DNA of 64,000 bases from Dehalococcoidia bacterium (lineage in GTDB: Bacteria > Chloroflexota > Dehalococcoidia > Bin125): contig JAJDWB010000007.1 in NCBI GenBank assembly GCA_022825855.1, positions 62,001 through 126,000 on the forward strand. Reading direction: 5' to 3'. Below are positions 18,628-20,178 of the stretch, one piece after another (position 1 is the first letter of the stretch; each line of letters begins with the position of its first letter). Under the pieces are notes generated by a model that was given only the letters and a program-made list of their open reading frames with translations, did no database searches and was not told where the DNA came from. The translations under genes were made by a program, and so were the position numbers.

Positions 18628-20178
18628 CTAGTGATCCGCCGCCTCTTCGTGGTGTTCGTCGTGATCGCCGACGGCGGTCGAGGCGAACACCAGGGTCAGC
18701 ATGGCGAACACAAACGCCTGGATGAAGCCCACGAACACCTCAAGCCCGAAGAAGACCGTCGGCACCACGAAGGCAACCAGGAACATCGAGATAAACAGCA
18801 CCACTTCGCCGGCAAAGATGTTGCCGAACAGACGGAAGGTGAACGAAATCACCCGTCCCACCTCGGAGACAATCTCCAGGATGCCGACAAACACCCCCAT
18901 CGGCCCCTTGACGATCGCGTGCGATCCGACGCCGATGTACTTGCCGAAGTTCGCCCCGATCCCCACCCCGCGCATGCCGAAGTACTGCACCGCCAGGAAC
19001 GACCAGAGCGCCAGCGCCAGCGGCAGATTCACATCCGACGCCAGCGCCCGGAAGATCGGGAAAATGTGCCCGACGGTGCCGGTCGTCGTGCCGTCCTCGT
19101 CGACGTAGCCCTTCTCTTCCATCCGCAGGATGAAGCCCAAGTGGGCCGTGTTGACGGTCGTCGGGACAATCGCCGGTTCAGAGTCTCCGATGGCGATCTC
19201 GCACTCGATCAGACAGAGCTGCGCCACGCTGCCGTCGGCCCCGGGCTCGATCACCAGCGGCTCGGCGAAGGCGTCGTAGGAAAAGTCGCGAGTCTCGTCG
19301 AACAGCGTGCGCGGCGGGATGATCTTGAAGCCGTCGCCCGAGAGAATCGGCCCGGTCGCTTTGACCAGCTCCGCGTCGCCGGCCACGATCGGCAGGTTGA
19401 AGACCATCGCATATTCAAGCTCGTGGTGGCCCTCGTCATGGATCCCGGCGGACTCGAGCCGCTCCTCGATCGCATGCACCAGGTCCGACCCGTCGGTCCC
19501 GTAGGGAATCGGATTGGTCCAGAACTCGCGGCGCACCGCGAACTCGGTTTCGGTCAGGTGACTCTCGCGGATCTTCTGGATCGTCTCGTCCGACTTGTCC
19601 TGCTTGTCGACCTTGAACGGGATCGGCTCGAAGAAGGCGCTGCCGAAGGCATCGTTGATCGCGTCGATCTCGCCGTCCGTCAGCTCGCGCTCGCCGTGTT
19701 CCAGGTCCTCGACCACTTCCATCACCGAGACTTCCATCTCGTGCAGATAGTGGTAGCGATAGTTCTCGACCGGCCCGATCACGTTGTTCCAGGGGAACAG
19801 CGCGAACCAGTTGCCGATCAGCAGGAAGATGAAAATCGTGAAGACGAACGGGAAGAACTTCTTGCCATTGCGTTCGCCACCGACCTGCTGGGCGATATTG
19901 AGGAAGGCCTCGTAGATTGCCTCGACCAGGTTCTGGAATCCGGTTGGCACCAGCGCCGATTCCACGTCCCGGGTGCGCCGCCAGACAAAGAACGCGGCAA
20001 TCGCCAACAGCGCAATCACGACCCAGGCGGAGAGGATCGTGTTCGTGATCTCGTAGGAACCGATCGAGATCACCGGCTCGGCCGCCAGCGCGATCACCGG
20101 CGCGGGCGCGCGGACGACGAAAAAGCCAAAGACCGCGAAGCCGAGCACTGCGATGATGATCAGGCGCCTTCGGCTCAC
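18628..20178 (-). CDS. atpB: ATP synthase Fo a subunit with a large inserted domain
   Basis: 516 residues, about twice the usual 230-300. The core is intact: TM1 near 46-65, TM2 near 108-129 ([21 protein letters not shown]), TM3 from [18 protein letters not shown] (384-401), the essential Arg449 in [13 protein letters not shown], and a last helix [18 protein letters not shown]. Residues about 131-382 are extra: a hydrophilic, Glu/Asp-rich segment with no obvious membrane helix, placed in the TM2-TM3 loop, which faces outside the cytoplasm in known a subunits. The frame is open and acceptable codons run through, so this is not a frameshift artefact. Start ATG 20178 overlaps the atpZ stop (ATGA). 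The a subunit provides the proton half-channels against the c ring. Confidence 0.95.

Follow-up and report, generated by a model that had tools for sequence, protein, structure and literature searches.

Subunit a is usually regarded as being among the most constrained parts of the cellular energy machinery. Here we describe a subunit a (AtpB) encoded in a 64,000-nucleotide stretch of DNA from a Dehalococcoidia bacterium (contig JAJDWB010000007.1, positions 62,001 to 126,000; hereafter the window). The best match of AtpB among solved structures is the enzyme of Chloroflexus aurantiacus (9itj/9itt; E = 5e-44), which has the same core helices, the same conserved arginine and the same order of elements; the two proteins differ in the segment between the second and third transmembrane helices (TM2 and TM3), where 232 residues in AtpB replace 42 residues of the C. 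aurantiacus chain (alignment to 9itj_T).

Two other systems offer partial parallels. In the Pseudomonas aeruginosa ATP synthase, one inserted residue of subunit a helps a metal ion to cap the cytoplasmic channel (PMC12796488); this is also a lineage-specific addition near a proton half-channel, but it is a single residue on the cytoplasmic side, whereas the addition to AtpB is an entire segment and lies on the outside of the membrane. In porins (e.g., OmpF and PorB), intragenic recombination is, as a rule, confined to the surface loops and leaves the membrane domains alone (PMC3105102). AtpB resembles these porins in that only the exposed segment is exchanged while the membrane parts stay (see below). 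The likeness is evolutionary alone, as porins are outer membrane proteins while AtpB is part of a rotary enzyme that is essential and resides in the cytoplasmic membrane. A search of the open-licence literature did not find an earlier report of such a subunit a insert.

The atpB reading frame has a GTG start and no internal stops, and its start codon overlaps the stop codon of the upstream AtpI-like gene (Table 1). As atpE, atpF, atpH, atpA, atpG, a gene for a HAD-family hydrolase, atpD and atpC follow downstream, in a complete cluster with the order atpIBEFHAG-(HAD)-DC, this subunit a is part of an ordinary F1FO cluster. A genome-wide profile search identified AtpB as the sole PF00119 protein of the genome; the profile matched with a whole-protein E value of 9e-43 (147 bits, as compared to a cut-off of 33.9) in two stretches flanking the insert, with residues ~131-370 between them. 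The NCBIfam equivalog TIGR01131 scored 98.5 bits, under its cut-off of 102.6, with a match that was also split in two; as the core aligns throughout, the score is most simply explained by the insert. The first-pass annotation, made from the letters of the window, had reported that all core helices and Arg449 are present, and this is borne out by the position of R449 in a canonical RLFGN motif and by flanks that align to solved chains. R449, N453 and Q487 align to the solved chains and E458 to the Chloroflexus chain, and the protein outside the insert contains 18 D/E and 16 K/R. Subunit c is without the glutamine and the Glu-Ser pattern of the Ilyobacter sodium-type c rings, which we take to mean that proton coupling is likely. 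Overall, AtpB is a functional-looking proton-type subunit a.

The HAD-family hydrolase gene (13951-14634, minus strand) lies between atpG and atpD and splits the atp cluster; homologues were found in the atp regions of most relatives from the same order. Directly upstream of the cluster (20584-21177, minus strand) is a gene for a protein with a bifunctional-nuclease domain (BFN, PF02577), which is also present in the same atp regions of relatives.

Table 1. Coordinates of atpB, its segments and the neighbouring ATP synthase genes (positions in the window; residues of AtpB)
Feature	Positions	Strand	Basis or remark
AtpI-like gene (ATPase_gene1)	20175..20459	-	Pfam PF09527, E 8e-11
atpB, ATP synthase subunit a with extracytoplasmic insert	18628..20178	-	516 aa; ORF and translation, PF00119
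N-terminal membrane core, residues 37-130, ends with TM2	19789..20070	-	alignment to solved subunit a chains
Insert, residues 131-369, acidic	19072..19788	-	~235 residues; without Pfam or NCBIfam match
Conserved insert start, residues 131-149	19732..19788	-	fully or almost fully invariant within the genus
Variable part 1, residues ~157-258, predicted helical	19405..19710	-	A and B differ; alignment; moderate AlphaFold confidence
Conserved insert middle, residues 259-309, with VFNLP	19252..19404	-	alignment of order
Variable part 2, residues 310-338, holds the insert's only two cysteines in both versions	19165..19251	-	alignment; cysteine count
NTAHLGF motif region, residues 340-350	19129..19161	-	alignment of order
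C-terminal membrane core, residues 370-505; contains R449, E458, E480, Q487	18664..19071	-	
Arg449 codon, conserved arginine of subunit a	18832..18834	-	RLFGN motif; alignment to 9itj_T, 8j0s_a
atpE, subunit c, proton-binding-type residues	18291..18542	-	83 aa; PF00137
atpF, subunit b	17685..18176	-	TIGR01144
Remaining cluster: atpH, atpA, atpG, HAD hydrolase, atpD, atpC	12030..17650	-	

In the alignment of AtpB to 9itj_T, the first match runs to approximately residue 138, and alignment resumes with the second at residue 371. The segment without a counterpart had initially been placed at residues ~131-382; this assignment stands for residues 131-369, but residues 371-384 align to 9itj_T and thus have counterparts in ordinary subunits, so that the extra segment comprises approximately residues 131-369. 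Its assignment to the extracytoplasmic TM2-TM3 loop was upheld, as both PF00119 halves and the alignments to solved chains flank the insert (the topology being assigned by homology), and so was its description as rich in Glu and Asp, with 50 D/E as compared to 16 K/R, along with 9 H and 2 C, among 239 residues (net charge -34). A hydrophobicity scan of the insert revealed no segment at the level of a transmembrane helix. Residues 259-309 include many columns that are invariant in the genus and fewer that are invariant across the order, while N343, T344, H346 and G348 are conserved in all five genera of the order. The cysteine motifs of variable part 2 read LCLIECE in one version of the insert (version A, see below) and ICLPSDDRxC in the other (version B); the two neighbouring cysteines in both represent a candidate disulfide.

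Searches with the insert against Pfam and NCBIfam gave no match, the only Pfam hit being a sub-threshold one to DUF4479 (E = 0.24). The one sequence match in the PDB to a synthetic EPCR binding protein (E = 0.005) involved a helical stretch and was taken as a chance match, and repeat-driven expansion was ruled out, as the insert contains no convincing internal repeat. A separate gene for this segment elsewhere in the genome, which the first-pass annotation had named as evidence against its reading, was also ruled out, since a search of the genome placed the insert at a single locus. AlphaFold2 models of the full protein and of the insert alone (12 close sequences each) had mean pLDDT values of 48 and 50, respectively, with better block means only at residues ~150-255 (roughly 46-85 per ten-residue block). 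Both runs predicted helices at residues ~137-160, 168-181, 190-204, 210-221 and 230-243, and a low-confidence part after residue ~255 with strands near residues 308-323. A comparison of the first model against the PDB yielded long-helix matches only, none of which was meaningful over the insert. The models were too weak for a fold to be assigned, although a folded domain is plausible.

A loop of 227-257 residues at the same place and without stops is present in each of the order's 19 readable genomes, which represent five genera (G012, without a match, was left out of the count), and the acidity of the insert is retained in all genera. As 19 genomes agree in this way, the insert is not a product of chance or of an assembly error; the early suggestion of a lineage trait with the same boundaries in relatives thus proved correct, and the assembly chimera that had been raised as an objection to it was rejected for the insert. 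Among named records, the close relatives come from metagenome bins assigned to Dehalococcoidia or Chloroflexota, and the first-pass annotation was right in turning to Chloroflexota; bin labels such as RHO and IRC presumably indicate sponge hosts.

Long TM2-TM3 loops are also usual in other families of the class Dehalococcoidia, with 10-171 residues (median 114) among 71 proteins that were selected among the higher-ranking matches in a single survey and hence represent a sample and not a census; the loop of the insert-bearing order is the longest in the class. Outside the class, PF00119 spans only ~180-300 residues in a survey of the phylum (the model itself has 217), and no insertions as large as that of AtpB were seen in this survey. 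The long loop is thus a class-wide tendency that is maximal in the insert-bearing order. Homology is not claimed between the insert and the loops of the other families, however, as the profile comparison reached a best probability of 16% and was not convincing. Among those other families, the loops of f17 and f66 (L061-L063 and L083-L084) proved homologous in an hhalign comparison (97%), and the f17 and f33 loops have a short motif in common (84%), which indicates that the loop segments of the class have several origins. The loop of G138 (L082) contains a tandem repeat of ~15 residues, YLDDHGHLKDIPEGQ, which suggests, from its sequence, loop growth by duplication in this family.

The exchange of the insert was analyzed within the window's genus, where two major versions were distinguished, i.e., version A (the window genome, G003, G008, G009, G013 and G014) and version B (G001, G004, G005, G006, G007, G010 and G011). 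A third version, with ~20 extra residues (GEKSKIKEVDGHEKVVCDGS) in variable part 1, is found in G002 (L029). Identity between version A and version B inserts is 51-59%, while the underlying cores are mostly 94-98% identical (about 86% for the more distant cores of G005 and G007). In a tree of seven neighbouring proteins that are linked to atpB (the operon tree), G008 (version A) is the sister of G006 (version B; support 99%), and the window genome (version A) joins G004, G010 and G011 (all version B) with 96% support. The insert tree, on the other hand, separates A from B. In AU tests, neither of the two groupings of the operon tree was compatible with the insert data (p-AU = 6e-43 with delta lnL 329, and p-AU = 4e-5 with delta lnL 324), nor could version A or version B be accepted as a clade on the operon data (p-AU = 0.0003 with delta lnL 160, and p-AU = 0.0002 with delta lnL 169). 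This conflict indicates that species have exchanged the insert through intragenic recombination.

Comparisons along 8.5 kb showed that identity between G006 and G008 is mostly 81-97% in the flanking coding regions as compared to 49-78% in the insert, while G006 and G010 show the reverse pattern, with 88-96% identity inside the insert. Nucleotide identity between A and B remains high at the insert start (residues 131-149), and the drop extends from about residue 147-167 to about residue 367. The proportion of synonymous differences (pS) between G006 and G008 was 0.51 in the insert and 0.30 in the core; this rise fits an imported segment and is not predicted by selection on amino acids alone. 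For other A/B pairs (the window genome against G004 or G011), core pS is as high as insert pS, so that only the closest pair shows a clear pS signal of import. Within versions, pN and pS of the insert were 0.022 and 0.33 (G006 and G010) and 0.054 and 0.47 (the window genome and G003), and, as judged from these values, purifying selection on the insert is strong within a version. Overall, these comparisons of coding sequences show that the insert has been traded between species of the genus as a module bounded by conserved membrane-coding flanks, which had not been anticipated by the first-pass annotation. Strain chimeras in metagenome assemblies could, in principle, mimic some of the A/B mosaics; several independent pairs agree. 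In the window's genus, the exchange is thus confined to the loop and the core is conserved, as for porins.

We propose that the TM2-TM3 loop of subunit a grew into an acidic segment of ~235 residues at the membrane's outer face, beside the proton entry, which would leave the core motor unaltered, as the core is nearly identical beneath all versions. On the outside of the cell, the insert would encounter something that may keep alternative versions in circulation in a manner similar to porin surface loops; a biotic pressure (e.g., phage, grazer, host defence) or a varying surface partner is most likely. We consider it close to an even prospect, if slightly short of one, that the insert is a surface-facing domain with alternative versions maintained by outside pressure.

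A different role for the insert would be the docking of an extracytoplasmic protein or of a neighbouring ATP synthase, with versions A and B each matching a version of the partner and swaps restoring the match. The strong constraint within versions, the patches conserved across five genera and the exchange of the whole segment instead of point changes are all consistent with such matching, but A and B are intermixed in the tree built from the neighbouring proteins together, which leaves no partner evident within the atp cluster, and we regard this explanation as rather unlikely. The first-pass annotation had named contact with a partner as one option; its other two, a guard of the proton half-channel and a local buffering of pH by the acidic insert, which would gather protons near their entry, seem improbable to us. 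While the insert is attached right beside the extracytoplasmic mouth with its large negative charge, and its acidity is preserved throughout the order, loops of very different lengths (down to 10 residues) surround the same core in the class, several of them with little net charge. Strict gating is also difficult to reconcile with versions that differ in nearly half of their residues on nearly identical cores, and a pure charge effect would need neither conserved motifs nor distinct versions exchanged as modules.

One could also argue that drift enlarged a weakly constrained loop that serves no specific function and whose versions are incidental, given that loops throughout the class are long and evolve rapidly and that the inserts of other families have no clear homology to that of AtpB. 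Drift of this kind does not account for the low pN/pS within versions, for insert positions that are invariant across the order or for the presence of the insert in every one of the 19 genomes, and appears a little more improbable still. As all named records are metagenome assemblies, an assembly artefact or a chimeric MAG was considered as well; identical boundaries across these genomes, the absence of stops and contigs of up to 1.3 Mb make this explanation barely credible.

A broader form of the reading that we favor, a surface-facing domain under outside pressure, is that subunit a displays a variable surface domain that persists in alternative versions and is traded among related species under diversifying pressure, so that a core bioenergetic machine would serve additionally as an exposed target of recognition or as a module for adhesion or partner contact; we put this forward as a tentative possibility. 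If true, an outer segment as large as the membrane core is traded while the motor remains fixed, which would link bioenergetics to cell-surface interactions. The A and B inserts also represent natural domain-swap variants with which attachments near the proton entry could be tested without spoiling coupling.

In other groups of the class, too, loop sequences evolve more rapidly than core sequences. In one genus (f15 g140; L059 and L118-L121), the loop has a constant length of 139 residues and is 53-82% identical on cores that are about 93% identical; by its sequence pattern, this loop may represent a possible second case of exchange.
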